Position numbers and translations under genes: made by a program
The notes under the pieces: model-generated
What the model was told of the DNA's origin: nothing
Database searches by the model: none
Seen by the model: only the letters and a program-made list of their open reading frames with translations
Shown here: positions 3,418 to 64,000 of the stretch, one piece after another
Position numbering within the stretch: the stretch's first letter is position 1
Layout: every line of letters begins with the position of its first letter
From: Eubacterium sp.
GTDB lineage: Bacteria; Bacillota; Clostridia; Oscillospirales; Acutalibacteraceae
Length of the DNA stretch: 64,000 nucleotides
Assembly (NCBI GenBank): GCA_017463985.1
Contig: JAFUEH010000009.1
Span: 1 to 64,000 of the forward strand
Reading direction: 5' to 3'

Positions 3418-3427
3418 TAGCAAAAAT

Positions 3428-3473
3428 AAAAAGCGCCGCAAAGCAACGCTTTCTGTGCGTAAAAAGGAGCAGA
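3428..3473 (-). repeat. Hairpin repeat copy A, terminator of the DUF cassette
   Basis: Copy A of a three-member hairpin family (others at 4414-4460 and 4511-4540). On the minus strand AAAGCG pairs with CGCTTT and is followed by a U-rich run, so it can end the DUF2442 transcript. Copies A and B share about 46 bases, including GCGTAAAAAGGAGCAGA, and flank the cassette as direct repeats. Confidence 0.65.
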
Positions 3474-4259: not shown

Positions 4260-4413
4260 CTGCCGATGATATCTGTCCGCTTTGTCTTTCTATTTTTCGC
4301 TGAATACAGATAAGCGAATTAACTACGGTCCTGCGCTTAAAAACATCGTTTATGTTTATACCGGAGCCTTGGTTATGCCATTCGTGTCAGAAAAATCTGA
4401 AAATTGATAAAAC

Positions 4414-4460
4414 AAAAAGCACCGCCGAAGCAGTGCTTTCAATGCGTAAAAAGGAGCAGA
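4414..4460 (-). repeat. Hairpin repeat copy B
   Basis: It is nearly identical to copy C in its hairpin part (29 of the first 30 bases) and similar to copy A over about 46 bases. It also reads as a terminator on the minus strand (AAAGCAC/GTGCTTT then U tract), but sits behind copy C, so it looks like a duplicate of the rpsR terminator. Confidence 0.65.
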
Positions 4461-4510
4461 ATTTCGTATTTTGCGAGCGGGAGTCTTAAAAATGCACCGC
4501 GTAAAAAAAT

Positions 4511-4540
4511 AAAAAGCACCACCGAAGCAGTGCTTTCAAT
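4511..4540 (-). terminator. Terminator of rpsF-ssb-rpsR (repeat copy C)
   Basis: On the minus strand AAAGCAC pairs with GTGCTTT and is followed by a U run, six bases after the rpsR stop codon. It is the presumed ancestor of repeat copies A and B. Confidence 0.8.
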
Positions 4541-5726: not shown

Positions 5727-6935
5727 TTAGTTAACGCATTTTCGGCAGGGCGTTAACCCTCTGGCGCGCGCCGAATCGATCGAAGCAGGATAATACGTTC
5801 CGCCGTTGCAATGGTCGTCATAATGATAGCGCTTGCCCGTTCGGGTAATATACACCGTTGACTGATAACCGTCGGAGCTGGACGAGCTGCCGCCGGATTT
5901 TTTCATTTTTCCGCTGGTGCCGAACTGGTAGCTCTTGCCGCTGATCACCTGCTTGCCGGTCACCATGGCGCCGCTGCTGTTAAAATAATACCAGCCGTCG
6001 CCGTCATCGAGCCAGCCCACCTTCATGGCGCCGCTCGCATCGTCCATATAATACCAGCTGCCGCCGCTCTTGACCCAGCCGGTCGCCATCAGTCCGCTCG
6101 GCTTGAAATAATACCACTTGCCGCTGATTTTTTGCCAACCGGTCACCATCGCGCCGCTGCTGTTAAAATAATACCACTCATCCCAGTCGATCTCCTGCCA
6201 GCCGGTGAGCATCCTGCCGTTTTCGTCAAAATAGTACCACTTGCCGCCGATCTTCTTCCAGTCGGTCTGCATGGCGCCGTTGCTGCCGAAATAATACCAA
6301 CGGCTGCCGACCTTGCACCAGCCGGTACGCATTGCGCCGTCCGTGCCGAGGTAATACCAGGTGCCCAACTCGTCATACCAGCCCTTTTGCATGGTGTGAT
6401 CAAAATAGTCAAAGTAATACCACTTACCGCCGATCTTCTGCCAATCACCGACAGAAAGGCCGTTTTTCAGATAATACCACCGGCCGTTTTCCTTACGCCA
6501 ACCGGTAGGATAGGTCGGCAAAAATTCCGTGCTGCAGTCCGTGTAGTCAAAGCTGCTCGGCTCCGTCACATACACCTCGACCGCGCACCGCTTACTGTCA
6601 TTCAGGTCAATCCGGAACAGCAAATACAGCGCGCCGTTCTCTGTGTTGACCTTCTTGCAGACAGCGGCACCACCGTAATCCTCCATGCCGCCTGACGACC
6701 ATTCGGCAACCAGCGGCGTCTGCTGCAGCTTCAGCTCACTGCCGTCAGAAAAGGTAATCTGATACGTGCCGTTATTTTTCACATCAAAGCTGCCGTCTGC
6801 GCGGCAATCAAGCGTTGGTTTGGTCAGCACCGTGACTGCGGTCGGCTCAGGTACCGGCTCATACGCATAAGCCGCTGTCGGCAGTGTTGTCAGCAGCACA
6901 ACGAGCAGCACAAAAAATGAAACCATCCTTTTCAT
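5727..6935 (-). CDS. Secreted protein with choline-binding-type repeats and a C-terminal metal-site-like domain
   Basis: The 402-residue protein has a signal peptide ending near AYAYEPVP. A unique domain covers about residues 30-140. Nine or ten cell-wall-binding repeats of about 20 residues follow, each with WYYF/WYYL and G.M.TGW (examples: GGKWYYFDENGRMLTGW, GSRWYYFGSNGAMQTDW). A Ser-rich linker leads to a C-terminal module, YITRTGKRYHYDDHCNGG ... CRKC, whose His and three Cys could hold zinc. Repeats of this kind bind choline or other wall polymers. GAGG lies eight bases before the ATG at 6935, preferred over the upstream GTG at 6944. It follows the mgtE terminator, so it should have its own promoter, which I could not place. 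No catalytic domain is recognised. Confidence 0.8.
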   Translation of the reverse strand: MKRMVSFFVLLVVLLTTLPTAAYAYEPVPEPTAVTVLTKPTLDCRADGSFDVKNNGTYQITFSDGSELKLQQTPLVAEWSSGGMEDYGGAAVCKKVNTENGALYLLFRIDLNDSKRCAVEVYVTEPSSFDYTDCSTEFLPTYPTGWRKENGRWYYLKNGLSVGDWQKIGGKWYYFDYFDHTMQKGWYDELGTWYYLGTDGAMRTGWCKVGSRWYYFGSNGAMQTDWKKIGGKWYYFDENGRMLTGWQEIDWDEWYYFNSSGAMVTGWQKISGKWYYFKPSGLMATGWVKSGGSWYYMDDASGAMKVGWLDDGDGWYYFNSSGAMVTGKQVISGKSYQFGTSGKMKKSGGSSSSSDGYQSTVYITRTGKRYHYDDHCNGGTYYPASIDSARARGLTPCRKCVN

Positions 6936-19964: not shown

Positions 19965-21506
19965 TCAATCGATTTGCGTATAGAAAACCGCGAGCACGGT
20001 CTCCATCACATTATCCTCGTCCACATAAAACTCCGCGTGCGCCACGCCGGGAATTAGCGAATCAGGGATCGCAACCGCCTCGCCCTCCAGCCGGTAGGTG
20101 GCGAAATCGTCCACGCCCTTCGACAGCAGGAAGGAGGCCATATAGGTCACGTTGCTCAGAGAGATATTCGTCTGCGTATAGCTCATCGCAGTATTATACA
20201 GCGTTGAAACCGTGGAGAAGTCCTTAACGATAGACGGCAGCAGCTGCTGCGCATACGCCTTGATGTACTGCACCTGACGGTCAGAACGGTCGACCGCCGC
20301 GTCCGCGCTGTCCATATCACGGCGTCTGACATACGCCTCCGCCGCGTTACCGCGCAGGGTCACCGTCTCGCCGGCATAAATATCCTCGTCCGGAATATCA
20401 TACTGGGCGGTCAGGGTCACGCCGCCGATCGCGTCGTTGAGCGGTGCAATACCGTCCAGGTCGAGCGCCACGTATTTTTGAATCGGCACGTTGAGCAGGA
20501 TACGGCTCATGGCTGACGTGGTATTTTCACAGCTGCCGCTCTGGCCGTCGCCGTAGGCATAAGACAAACAGAGCTGCGCCTGTGAGGTCCGAACAAACAC
20601 GCCGCTGGCCGTCGTGATATTAATATCAGTAATCGTATCACGCGGGATCGCCACCACGCTGGAGGTGCCGGTTTCCGTATCGACCGCGACCACGATATCC
20701 GCATCGGCAGAGCCGACGAAATCCGTATCCTCCGCGTCGAGGAACTGGCGCCTGTCCACACCGATGAAGGCAAAGGTCGCCATGTTATCATTATATTTAT
20801 AGTGGTGACCGTTATACTCGATCACTTCCTCATACTGCACGTCCTGCACCGTGGTGATGTCCTTATGACCCTGCGCGCGCAGGACAAGGAACGTACCGAT
20901 CACGATCGCCACCAGCAGCAACAGCAGCAGCAGTACCGCGATCACGATCTTTACCGCCGTGGGCAGCTTGCTTTTCTTCTTCTTTTTTGAGCTGCTGCTC
21001 GAGGAATGATGGTGCGACGAGCTGCCGCTTGAGGAATGATGGTGCGACGAGCTGCCGCTTGAGGAATGGTGGTGCGATGAGCTGCCGCTCGAGGAATGGT
21101 GATGCGACGAGCTGCCGCTTGAGGAATGATGGTGCGACGAGCTGCTCGAGGAATGGTGATGCGACGAGCCGTCACTTGAGGAATGGTGGTGCGACGAGCT
21201 GCTCTCTGCCGTCGCGGCAGTTTCCGTAGCGGCTTCCGCCGCTGTTGCTTTTGCAGCTTCCTCTGCCGTTTCCGCGGCGGCTTCCTTCGCTGTTTCCTTT
21301 GCCGGTTCTGCTGTCGGCGCCGGTTCGCTCTTTGCCGGTTCTGCCGCGGCGGATTTTACCTTTTCGGTCACCACAAAATGCGGCTCAGCCGCCTTTGGCT
21401 TCGGCTTGTCGTTAATGGAAAAGGAGGGCGTCTCCTCCTCCGCAGAGGCAAGGAGGAGGTCCTCGCCGTCGTTATCAAAAAGTCCGGGATCAATAGGTTT
21501 CTTCAT
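19965..21506 (-). CDS. LytR-CpsA-Psr family ligase with His/Ser-rich cytoplasmic repeats
   Basis: The 513-residue protein has a long cytoplasmic N-terminus: Ala/Glu-rich to about residue 100, then seven HHH clusters in SSSHHHSSSG-type repeats (about 100-172), then KKKKKSK. One transmembrane helix (about 178-205) leads to an extracellular LCP domain (FAFIGVDRRQF, SVVAIPRDTITDI, IGGVTL, YVRRRDMDSADAAVDRSDRQ). LCP enzymes attach wall teichoic acids or other glycopolymers to peptidoglycan; the Arg and Asp residues that hold the lipid pyrophosphate are visible. The His repeats are not part of the family and could bind metal. The start overlaps the sortase gene by 17 bases, with little ribosome site, so translation is probably coupled. 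Confidence 0.88.
   Translation of the reverse strand: MKKPIDPGLFDNDGEDLLLASAEEETPSFSINDKPKPKAAEPHFVVTEKVKSAAAEPAKSEPAPTAEPAKETAKEAAAETAEEAAKATAAEAATETAATAESSSSHHHSSSDGSSHHHSSSSSSHHHSSSGSSSHHHSSSGSSSHHHSSSGSSSHHHSSSGSSSHHHSSSSSSKKKKKSKLPTAVKIVIAVLLLLLLLVAIVIGTFLVLRAQGHKDITTVQDVQYEEVIEYNGHHYKYNDNMATFAFIGVDRRQFLDAEDTDFVGSADADIVVAVDTETGTSSVVAIPRDTITDINITTASGVFVRTSQAQLCLSYAYGDGQSGSCENTTSAMSRILLNVPIQKYVALDLDGIAPLNDAIGGVTLTAQYDIPDEDIYAGETVTLRGNAAEAYVRRRDMDSADAAVDRSDRQVQYIKAYAQQLLPSIVKDFSTVSTLYNTAMSYTQTNISLSNVTYMASFLLSKGVDDFATYRLEGEAVAIPDSLIPGVAHAEFYVDEDNVMETVLAVFYTQID
20998..21204. repeat. Tandem 30-bp repeats encoding the His/Ser tract
   Basis: Seven units containing GAATG.TG.TGCGACGAGCTG follow each other. 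The first five are in exact 30-bp phase from 21001; the later ones vary by three bases. All keep the reading frame and encode HHH within serine runs. Near-identical units make this prone to copy-number change by slippage. Confidence 0.9.
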
Positions 21507-27689: not shown

Positions 27690-27970
27690 TTAGCCATAGC
27701 GCTCGCATTTGAACCACGGTTTAGAATGGCAAATTGACCTTATTTCTGCGTTGAAAATGCTCGCAATACGGCAAGTATTCCTGTGCTTTTCGCCTTGAAC
27801 TAAGCCCAATTTGCTCATTCTAAACTGCAAAGCACCTAAAACCGTAGGAGTTAAGATGAAGTTTGGTGCTTTGAGGGCGCAGCTTGGCTGTCGCCAAGCA
27901 AGAACGAAAACATCAAAATTCACTTAAATACCCGGTTTTAGGCGGGTTCGAATACGAGTGCTATGGCTAA
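27690..27970 (+). repeat. Structured three-way-junction element, copy 1 (candidate RNA)
   Basis: Outer arms 27690-27715 and 27945-27970 pair over 26 positions with two G-U pairs and one mismatch. Inside are two hairpins. P2 pairs 27719-27736 with 27807-27825 (18 bp with one bulged base) and contains inner stems AATAC/GTATT and GAAAA/TTTTC. P3 pairs CCTAAAACCG (27835-27844) with CGGTTTTAGG (27933-27942). The blocks TGCTCGCAA, TTCCTG and GCCTTG recur in copy 2 at 32910-33185 in the same orientation. The right outer arm includes the ATG (27963) of the MATE gene. No protein reading frame explains it. Confidence 0.75.
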
Positions 27971-32539: not shown

Positions 32540-32911
32540 ATGAAATTTTTTAAATGCTCCCACTGCGGTAACATTATCACCTTTATGGAAAATAAGGGCG
32601 TTCCGGTAATGTGCTGCGGTCAGAAAATGGACGAAATCATCCCCGGCGCGGTGGACGCCGCGGCAGAAAAGCACGTGCCGGTGATCGCCGTGGACGGCGA
32701 CAAGGTAACCGTCACCGTCGGTGATGTAGCGCACCCGATGACGGAGGAGCACCACATCGCCTGGATCGTCGTAGAAACCGAAAACGGCTTCCAGAAGAAA
32801 ACGCTCGATCCGACCGGCGCACCGCAGGCAGTATTCAGCCTGGCCGGTGAAAAGCTCGTTGCCGCGTACGCTTACTGCAATCTGCACGGTCTGTGGAAGG
32901 CGGAGGCATAA
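32540..32911 (+). CDS. dfx: Desulfoferrodoxin (superoxide reductase)
   Basis: The 123-residue protein has an N-terminal desulforedoxin domain (CSHCG ... CCGQK, four Cys for iron) and a C-terminal superoxide reductase domain with EEHHIAWI and YCNLHGLWK, supplying the His and Cys of the catalytic iron. It reduces superoxide to peroxide without making oxygen, a hallmark of anaerobes. AAGGAGG lies upstream. The stop codon is inside the outer arm of structured element copy 2, followed by rubrerythrin, which removes the peroxide product. Confidence 0.95.
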   Translation: MKFFKCSHCGNIITFMENKGVPVMCCGQKMDEIIPGAVDAAAEKHVPVIAVDGDKVTVTVGDVAHPMTEEHHIAWIVVETENGFQKKTLDPTGAPQAVFSLAGEKLVAAYAYCNLHGLWKAEA

Positions 32912-33185
32912 GCATAGGAGAGGCGAAACCGACAAGGTTTAAAAAGGCTGATTTGCGCTTATACTGCGTTAAAAATGCTCGCAACCCGAAAGGGTTCCTG
33001 CGCTTTTTGCCTTGTCTAACCACAAATCAGCACTTTTTAAACTGCGTAGCACCCAATAATCGCTGAAAATGAGTATAACTGTGCATTTCTTCGACGCAAG
33101 CATACTCGCGTATGGTAAGGAAAAAAATGTGCAGATATGCCATTTTCAGCGGTTTTGGGCTGTCGGGTTCACCTCCCCTATGCTT
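32910..33185 (+). repeat. Structured three-way-junction element, copy 2 (candidate RNA)
   Basis: Outer arms 32910-32934 and 33161-33185 match at 22 of 25 positions. P2 pairs 32937-32955 with 33023-33042 (19 bp, one bulge in the same place as copy 1), with inner stem AACCC/GGGTT around GAAA. P3 pairs CGCTGAAAATG (33061-33071) with CATTTTCAGCG (33141-33151), followed inward by a second paired stretch and CATAC/GTATG. Loops and joints share TGCTCGCAA, TTCCTG, AGCACC and GGTTTT.GGC with copy 1, while the stems differ. It fills the gap between dfx and rubrerythrin; nothing else is seen there. Confidence 0.75.
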
Positions 33186-63047: not shown

Positions 63048-64000
63048 ATGTTTTGTACGAACTGCGGTTGTCAGAACCGCGACACTGCTAAATTTTGTAA
63101 GGCCTGCGGCAGCAAGCTGGACGACGCGGACGAGATCATCGCCGCACCGGCGCCGACACCCACCCCGCAACCTGCACCGGTCATAACGCCGGAACCGGTG
63201 GTAATTCCCGAACCAACGCCAGAACCGGTTGTAATTCCTGAACCAACTCCGGAACCGGTTGTAATCCCCGCACCAACTCCGGAGCCGGTGGTGATACCTA
63301 AACCCATTCCGGAGCCGGTGGTAATACCTGAACCAACGCCGGAACCTGCTGCGCCATCGGTCGATGCCGCAGCGCTGTTACAGCAGGCACATAGCCTGCA
63401 GCGCGGTATAGGCGGTCCGGTGAACGTGCAGGAGGCCTACGCGCTCTACCAGCAGGTGCTGGCGGCAGACAGCCAAAATATGGATGCACTGAACAACCTC
63501 AGTCAGATCTGTTACACCTTCCGCTTTGGGGAGGAATACGCCTTCCACTGCGCTTCCCTTTCCGCTGCAGCCAACAATGCGGTCGGTATGTACTGGCTCG
63601 CGGTCTTTTACCTGTCCGGCTTTGGTTGTCAAGCGAACGAAGGAGAAGCGGCAGGCTGGTTCCGTCGCTCCGCCGCGGCCGGTTATATCCGGTCTGCCTT
63701 TGAGCTGGCCGATGCGGTCAGCAGAGATGAATACATTTTTGATTTAACGACAATGGCGACCAGCGGTAATTCAGCGGCGCAGGTAGCGTTATATCAGTTT
63801 TACCGCTATGACGACACGCCGGACGAGCCAAAGGCGCTGGCGTATCTGCAGCAGGCGGTGAATCAGGAGTATCCGTATGCCATCGGGCAGTATGCCTCGC
63901 TGTTGGAATTCGGCTCGGACACCGTCAACGAGGATTTACCGCGCGCCAAAGCGCTTTGGGAAAAGGCCGCCGCGCTGGGCGACGACACGGCGCTGTGGCG
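63048..64000 (+). CDS. Zinc-ribbon protein with Pro-rich repeats and Sel1/TPR-like repeats (partial)
   Basis: The gene starts with ATG at 63048 after AAAGGAG and stays open for 317 codons to the window end. The protein begins with a zinc ribbon (FCTNCGCQNRDTAKFCKACG), then five ten-residue repeats of PEPVVIPEPT type (about residues 45-100). Helical Sel1/TPR-like repeats follow (AYALYQQVLAADSQNMDALN, AGWFRRSAAAGYIRSAFELA, ALAYLQQAVNQEYPYAIGQY, AKALWEKAAALGD). It is probably co-transcribed with the preceding zinc-ribbon gene. No membrane helix is seen in the visible part. Sel1/TPR repeats usually mediate protein contacts. Confidence 0.78.
   Translation, partial: MFCTNCGCQNRDTAKFCKACGSKLDDADEIIAAPAPTPTPQPAPVITPEPVVIPEPTPEPVVIPEPTPEPVVIPAPTPEPVVIPKPIPEPVVIPEPTPEPAAPSVDAAALLQQAHSLQRGIGGPVNVQEAYALYQQVLAADSQNMDALNNLSQICYTFRFGEEYAFHCASLSAAANNAVGMYWLAVFYLSGFGCQANEGEAAGWFRRSAAAGYIRSAFELADAVSRDEYIFDLTTMATSGNSAAQVALYQFYRYDDTPDEPKALAYLQQAVNQEYPYAIGQYASLLEFGSDTVNEDLPRAKALWEKAAALGDDTALW
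63185..63352 (+). repeat. Tandem 30-bp repeat encoding PEPVVIPEPT
   Basis: Five in-frame copies of about 30 bases, each containing CCGGAACCGGTTGTAAT or a close variant. They form a rigid Pro-rich linker and are prone to copy-number change. Confidence 0.85.

Follow-up and report, generated by a model that had tools for sequence, protein, structure and literature searches.

Correia/NEMIS elements are palindromic MITEs of neisseriae that have TA as their target and can sit in transcripts. ERIC, BOX, and RUP repeats are imperfect palindromes with a conserved centre that lie between genes, and to our knowledge each of them is confined to a few related genera; REP/BIME hairpins are probably used as DNA. 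The Correia element is named in PMC2267715.

The window (the whole 64,000-nucleotide stretch of DNA analysed) holds two copies of a repeat with one architecture, of 275 bp (copy 1) and 274 bp (copy 2). Copy 1 is flanked by rsmA and a MATE gene, copy 2 by desulfoferrodoxin-like and rubrerythrin-like genes (names from our reading of the open reading frames). In both, outer arm P1 is followed by hairpin P2 (tipped by a conserved core), a mini-hairpin of nine bases, the long hairpin P3, and the returning arm P1'. The features were placed as follows.

27691 to 27692, no strand: TA left of copy 1, target duplication; the same layout (TA, GCC...GGC, TA) occurs in other copies of this genome
27693 to 27967, + strand (the strand of the core): copy 1, whole element, probable MITE by its fold and the empty sites of relatives
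27693 to 27715, + strand: left terminal inverted repeat of copy 1, outer arm P1; this repeat was searched for in the genome
27718 to 27736, + strand: left arm of P2 of copy 1, from the predicted fold
27724 to 27819: match of model R1 in copy 1, from the search of the genome
27746 to 27797, + strand: conserved imperfect hairpin core of copy 1 (left half, 27746-27769; right half, 27775-27797)
27807 to 27828, + strand: right arm of P2 of copy 1
27826 to 27834, + strand: mini-hairpin TGC-AAA-GCA of copy 1
27835 to 27943, + strand: long hairpin P3 of copy 1, with apex C(TGTC)G at 27882-27899
27944 to 27967, + strand: right terminal inverted repeat of copy 1, including the ATG (27963-27965) of the MATE open reading frame
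27968 to 27969, no strand: TA right of copy 1
32909 to 32910: TA left of copy 2; the right flank of copy 2 is TTA
32911 to 33184, + strand: copy 2, whole element, probable MITE of a second subfamily, with ends AGCATAGG...CCTATGCT
32964 to 33014, + strand: conserved core of copy 2
33043 to 33051, + strand: mini-hairpin TGC-GTA-GCA of copy 2
33101 to 33114, + strand: apex C(TCGC)G of P3 of copy 2

Folding energies of copies 1 and 2 were -124.2 and -121.3 kcal/mol, in both cases about 45 kcal/mol more stable than dinucleotide shuffles (z = -9.4 and -11.2; 0 of 200 shuffles as good), so that the structured 281-nt stretch proposed by an earlier, sequence-only reading is real. The paired changes between the copies on which that reading relied were indeed found (AGAATG/CATTCT versus AAAAAG/CTTTTT in P2 and AATAC/GTATT versus AACCC/GGGTT in the inner stem, copy 1 given first), as was the single-base bulge at the same place in P2 of both. 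Its three-way junction needs correction, in that the small hairpin at 27826-27834 and the long P3 make the junction more than three-way; the blocks that it had taken for unpaired were conserved but in part paired (GC/GC inside TGCTCG/CTGYGC). The sequence of P3 differed greatly between copies 1 and 2, yet was paired in both. The mini-hairpin occupied the same place in 14 of 16 long-form subfamilies and had a loop of the form GNA, on either strand, in 7 of those 14, and the apex of P3 was C(TNNC)G, equivalent to C(GNNA)G in the complementary strand, in 8 of the 16. GNA and C(GNNA)G loops are unusually stable DNA loops, and their presence here weakly hints at folded DNA.

Other repeats of the window were seen in passing. 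Tandem repeats at 5892-6446, 20958-21202, and 63185-63334 had periods of about 60 nt and about 30 nt and probably encode repeat domains of surface or cell-wall proteins, and three alike hairpin-like repeats of the type AAAGCACCGC..GCAGTGCTTT lay inside about 1.1 kb (3422-3473, 4409-4460, and 4506-4540).

The rsmA locus was examined in 30 of 73 matches. A MATE gene was adjacent in 28 of the 29 relatives examined there (L266 was without it), and in all 28 relatives having both genes the gap between them was -10 to 72 nt and held no core, compared to 286 nt in the window. The left flank of copy 1 retains ATGGCTGTTA and the right flank runs on into TAAGGACAACAC, and the MATE protein starts with M-A-x-K-D-N-T in several relatives. 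From these kept flanks and the protein start of the relatives, we infer that copy 1 entered just inside the 5' end of the MATE gene, the in-frame ATG of which (at 27963) would now be supplied by the right terminal repeat of the element. Copy 2 overlaps the stop codon of its upstream gene. Downstream of the related gene, no core was present within 600 nt at 28 of 28 other loci (in two of which 107 and 126 nt were available), and the gene pair that surrounds copy 2 was not conserved at these loci.

Alignment of the inverted repeats gave ends for 118 of 127 oriented copies; the other 9 were dropped. Copies in the genome of the window mostly had the ends GCCATAG...CTATGGC or AGCATAGG...CCTATGCT between two TA dinucleotides, with altered ends in a few. 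TA on both sides was read by eye at copy 1 and at many Neisseria and own-genome copies; the flanks of the clostridial GGGC subfamily were often TA/TT, and TA is incomplete there. With ends placed at the repeat, subfamily representatives measured 160 to 281 nt, and no transposase gene lies inside, since elements of this length are too short to code for one. Because the repeats are multicopy, inserted where relatives are empty, bounded by terminal repeats, non-coding, and constant in their core, we consider them a family of non-autonomous transposable elements (MITEs) with inverted repeats around a conserved imperfect hairpin core, at a probability of about 0.8.

Transposase-coding elements sharing ends with the MITEs were found in two Neisseria genomes and, more weakly, in Eikenella. 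In Neisseria genome G004 (L120), an insertion sequence (IS) with a 260-amino-acid open reading frame matching PF01609 adjoined a core-bearing MITE with the same GGGCTTCCTGACA ends (GGGCTTCCTGACAATT). In Neisseria genome G002, a two-reading-frame IS had the GGGTCTGTCGACA ends common to local MITEs, ends that were shared with MITEs at L123 and L127, and the ends of an Eikenella IS (L121) matched more weakly. No core was found inside the PF01609 IS elements (L120, L123, and L127), which we read as IS5-type. A PF01609 transposase was looked for in the genome of the window and none was found; PF01609 was present in only 10 of 80 genomes of its genus. Neither a scan of 12 distinct clostridial loci (13 entries, with L122 and L328 at one place) nor searches by end pattern yielded a clostridial IS with matching ends. 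A Y1 transposase (PF01797) was present in 38 of the 80 genus genomes, including that of the window. Points against the MITE account are the lack of PF01609 in the genome itself, the lack of a matching clostridial IS, the incomplete TA of the GGGC subfamily, an excess of G.U in P3, and the position and orientation of long-form clostridial copies relative to genes (see below). A transposase would act in trans on the ends of these elements, in Neisseria presumably one of IS5 type.

That this was a structured repeat family had been suggested from the two copies alone, and a model search brought many further homologues. With model R1, at least 8 core-bearing copies were found in the genome of the window, and matches were obtained in 74 of 118 relatives (E <= 1e-3), in 5 of 398 genomes sampled across the phylum, among them that of the window (E <= 1e-5), and in 35 of 83 genomes of the Neisseria dentiae family (E <= 1e-5); copy numbers from all of these searches are lower bounds. 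By these counts, the family is common in some clades and unseen in most sampled genomes. A scan of genome contigs found the 19-base left half of the core in at least 105 stretches. Among the matches listed, 114 core matches in 111 loci, own-genome copies included, comprised 91 that also had the right half and 23 in which the script found none; by reading, about 8 of the latter (L028, L069, L073, L076, L079, L093, L097, and, doubtfully, L095) are chance matches and the other 15 are truncated, masked, or altered copies. Carriers included Neisseria, Eikenella, Faecalibacterium, Gemmiger, Ruthenibacterium, Pseudoflavonifractor, Oscillospiraceae, and rumen Eubacterium, with an apparent truncated copy in Cardiobacterium. 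Two forms occurred, a long one with P3 and a short one (about 165 bp), the latter in Neisseriaceae and in certain Clostridia. One own-genome copy (L336, from G000:C5:67780 onward) was a chimera with its core deleted, the left half stemming from one subfamily and the right half from the other, which indicates that exchange between subfamilies happens. Carriage by phages or plasmids was rejected within the range of the searches made: a 64-nt core query gave no blastn match in either, viral contigs held 0 exact core matches, and a 53-nt query gave no blastn match in Escherichia coli.

The core consists of CTGCGTTRAAAATGCTCGSAA, a variable hairpin, and CTGYGCTTTTYGCCTTG. One nearly identical core was found in subfamilies with differing ends, in Clostridia of the gut as well as in the mouth bacteria Neisseria and Eikenella, and the arms that flank it varied between subfamilies, complementarity being kept. 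Elements were also gathered by their ends alone, without use of the core, in three Neisseriaceae genomes. This gave 29 end-pairs. A core was enclosed by 27, in 10 of which inserts lay inside the core or close to it; the two core-free pairs were an internally deleted IS and an arms-only palindrome. Cores were compared in 18 of the 27 copies, one of them (L300) with an insert. Among the 17 uninterrupted copies, a single base of GCGTTAAAAATGCTCGCAAG differed in L299 alone and a single base of TGYGCTTTTTGCC in L309 alone, and the arms of three subfamilies varied widely around this near-constant core. Conservation of the core is therefore not merely a matter of ascertainment.

A core that is constant on both halves, where pairing alone would permit drift, could be a binding site in double-stranded DNA, for example for a nucleoid protein, with the hairpin as a by-product of the inverted repeat. 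We find this unlikely, since diverged cores of genome G431 that lie outside the class (L169, L170, and L172) have swapped the A-tract helix for the complementary TCAAAGC/GCTTTGA and kept the GTT and CCTTG loops, and since one pair of the A-tract helix covaries (A-U in 32 and G-C in 6 of 39 sequences).

Several cores and arms carried inserts. Two own-genome copies of different subfamilies, L167 (G000:C16:20816-20961) and L168 (G000:C19:34833-34978), had an apparently identical insert of about 50 nt at the same place inside the core, apparently a nested small palindromic insertion. A 25-nt insert starting with GGTAG and ending with CT, with two GCGNAGC-like mini-hairpins, lay in the left A-tract of the core in L300, L303, and L305 and in the right arm of L315, L318, and L323; the A-runs that it preceded differed among the Neisseria and Eikenella copies, no target duplication was evident, and it looks like a REP unit. 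In Eikenella, both the A-tract on the left of the core and the T-tract on its right had more hairpin-like inserts (L314, L315, L316, L318, L319, L320, and L323), so that the core helix is a repeated target of small insertions. At L171 (G439:C13:60542-60640 and the 150 nt that follow), a tandem pair of hairpins showing the loops CTGTGTCA...TCCTTGCC matched the core model weakly, apparently without MITE ends.

Covariation was assessed in an alignment of 39 sequences (core plus or minus 24 nt), with the structure derived from the same alignment. In this enlarged alignment, 94.3% of cells paired, versus 35 to 50% with the partner slid by 1 to 3 columns, and the covariation score was 0.328 versus 0.091 in shuffles (0 of 500 as high). 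Three of the five measures of covariation were above shuffles, and two were not (pairs with a double change, 9 versus 8.5 in shuffles; further pair types, 24 versus 25.3). Double changes numbered 115 and one-sided changes 3 among the cells of the core alignment. The predicted core fold had one constant U-G pair (38 of 39 sequences).

In an RNA helix, G.U is a cheap substitute for a Watson-Crick pair and A.C is not; in DNA, both are mismatches. In 43 nearest-neighbour pairs of copies, in which each copy was used once and which are not fully independent, Watson-Crick pairs had given way to G.U in 62 cases, A.C in 67, and other mismatches in 72, and a different Watson-Crick pair had taken their place in 41; by our estimate, mutations arising independently at the rate observed would account for only about 1 such double change. 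Within the arms of 65 single elements, G.U and A.C numbered 134 and 195, and in the P1/P2 arms of 29 subfamilies they numbered 42 and 64. P3 was the exception, with 49 G.U and 20 A.C (16 subfamilies); this excess weakens a pure DNA reading and, together with the constant U-G pair of the core, leaves room for an RNA role. Overall, pairing looks to be kept at the DNA level. According to PMC8794818, DNA template switching in imperfect inverted repeats can produce seemingly compensatory changes in one step, and concerted double changes without G.U preference, as found here, fit what such template switching or whole-arm exchange can give.

Gene arrangement around the copies was assessed with a crude caller of open reading frames, the strand calls of which can err. 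Of 29 Neisseriaceae copies, 10 lay between (+,+), 10 between (-,-), 4 between convergent, and 5 between divergent genes; for 40 long-form clostridial copies these numbers were 14, 7, 18, and 1, the lone divergent case being a miscall of copy 2 of the window, the left gene of which is really on the + strand. Most long-form clostridial copies lay downstream of genes, with a non-significant lean to one orientation (14:7), a pattern that may reflect some role in transcripts. The repeat might be a structured RNA, with the core strand encoding a cis-acting element or small RNA that is selected for its fold and spread by transposition only incidentally. Strong covariation, conserved internal loops, GNRA-like apex loops in some core hairpins, for example C(GAAA)G, the G.U excess in P3, a terminator-like hairpin in P3 of one subfamily, and the 18 of 40 long-form copies between convergent genes favour such an RNA, but we hold it to be improbable: G.U was not preferred in P1/P2 or between close copies, orthologous sites were empty, Neisseriaceae copies occurred in both orientations and all gene arrangements, and no Rfam match was obtained. 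The claim of the sequence-only reading that paired changes testify to selection on RNA structure is left without support, given that the copies are inserted mobile DNA with TA flanks and inverted repeats, that 28 of 28 orthologous junctions were core-free, and that G.U did not exceed A.C (62:67).

Complementarity of the sequences flanking the elements was scored against swapped pairs of flanks. Scores of 10 or higher were reached by 23 of 60 long-form clostridial copies (4.8% of swapped pairs) and scores of 12 or higher by 14 of the 60 (0.85% of swapped flanks). The short-element group of the script comprised 58 copies, with high scores in 3 of 49 from Neisseriaceae (2.2% of swapped pairs) and in 0 of 9 from Clostridia. 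Of the 23 high scorers, 21 had ends in (A)GGG and 2 in CGGCG, with runs of A to the left and of T to the right, and we read them as probable insertions in the loops of intrinsic terminators; the subfamilies of the window were not among them. Such insertion of one subfamily into hairpin loops suggests that secondary structure guides the choice of target. The stem-like flanks and the frequency of convergent gene pairs would also suit host-domesticated 3'-end insulators, kept as strong terminators or protectors of mRNA 3' ends and of secondary mobile origin, an explanation that we think has little chance of being right, given that insertion preference accounts for the same pattern, that only 3 of the 49 Neisseriaceae copies score as high, that the window copies lie outside such hairpins, and that copy 1 sits at the start of a gene.

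As a family of MITEs, the element would work and mutate as a DNA hairpin, so that its arms stay complementary: mismatches would be repaired by template switching or arm exchange, and hairpin-competent copies would move best. The core, with its fixed bulged bases, is by conjecture most likely a DNA-hairpin signal that is read during the movement or replication of the element itself, and a signal for the element's own propagation would explain how lineages may keep the core and exchange ends to fit local transposases. A more far-reaching version, which we put forward only tentatively, makes the core a portable module, a DNA hairpin that a widely conserved factor would read in single-stranded or cruciform DNA; the module would boost the mobility of the inverted repeats that carry it and would have moved between phyla, changing ends for local transposases. 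If true, the element would be a modular parasite of transposases.

The earlier view that the repeat belongs to no named family agrees with the comparison to Rfam, in which 0 matches over threshold were obtained in the window or in L049, L033, L086, and L045; for copy 1, the only match was to a long noncoding RNA (18.8 bits; gathering threshold, 50; E = 0.74). We recognised no description of this repeat in the open-access literature searched, and the core sequences were in no paper text there. That Bacillota and Pseudomonadota have a hairpin core in common, within elements whose ends are unrelated, suggests that MITEs can contain a functional part for which that literature likewise offered no description. 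Covariation commonly passes for proof that an RNA is functional, and, with strong covariation and no G.U preference in P1, P2, or close copies, this family is a warning case for automated RNA discovery. It is also natural material for the study of template switching in inverted repeats.

The family falls among the bacterial MITEs and can be compared with the Correia, ERIC, BOX, and RUP repeats; what is new is a sequence-conserved hairpin core common to MITEs with unrelated ends in two phyla. ERIC, BOX, and RUP differ from it in range, the present core spanning Bacillota and Pseudomonadota. The Correia/NEMIS element is likewise a neisserial palindromic MITE with a TA target, and is set apart in ends and length. 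The PF01609 elements of Neisseria (L120, L123, and L127) are alike in their terminal repeats, GGGCTTCCTGACA and GGGTCTGTCGACA, next to TA, but code for a transposase and have no core inside. REP/BIME and RAYT systems (compare PMC2817692) share imperfect hairpins repeated between genes; the elements found here are long, are bounded by a terminal repeat on each side, and have TA as their target. Bacterial MITEs such as MITEAba12 (PMC6382973) and those of Coxiella (PMC5896051) are likewise short, multicopy, without a transposase gene, and bounded by terminal inverted repeats, whereas in the present family the arms are complementary over nearly their whole length and an internal core is common, across phyla, to MITEs with unrelated ends.
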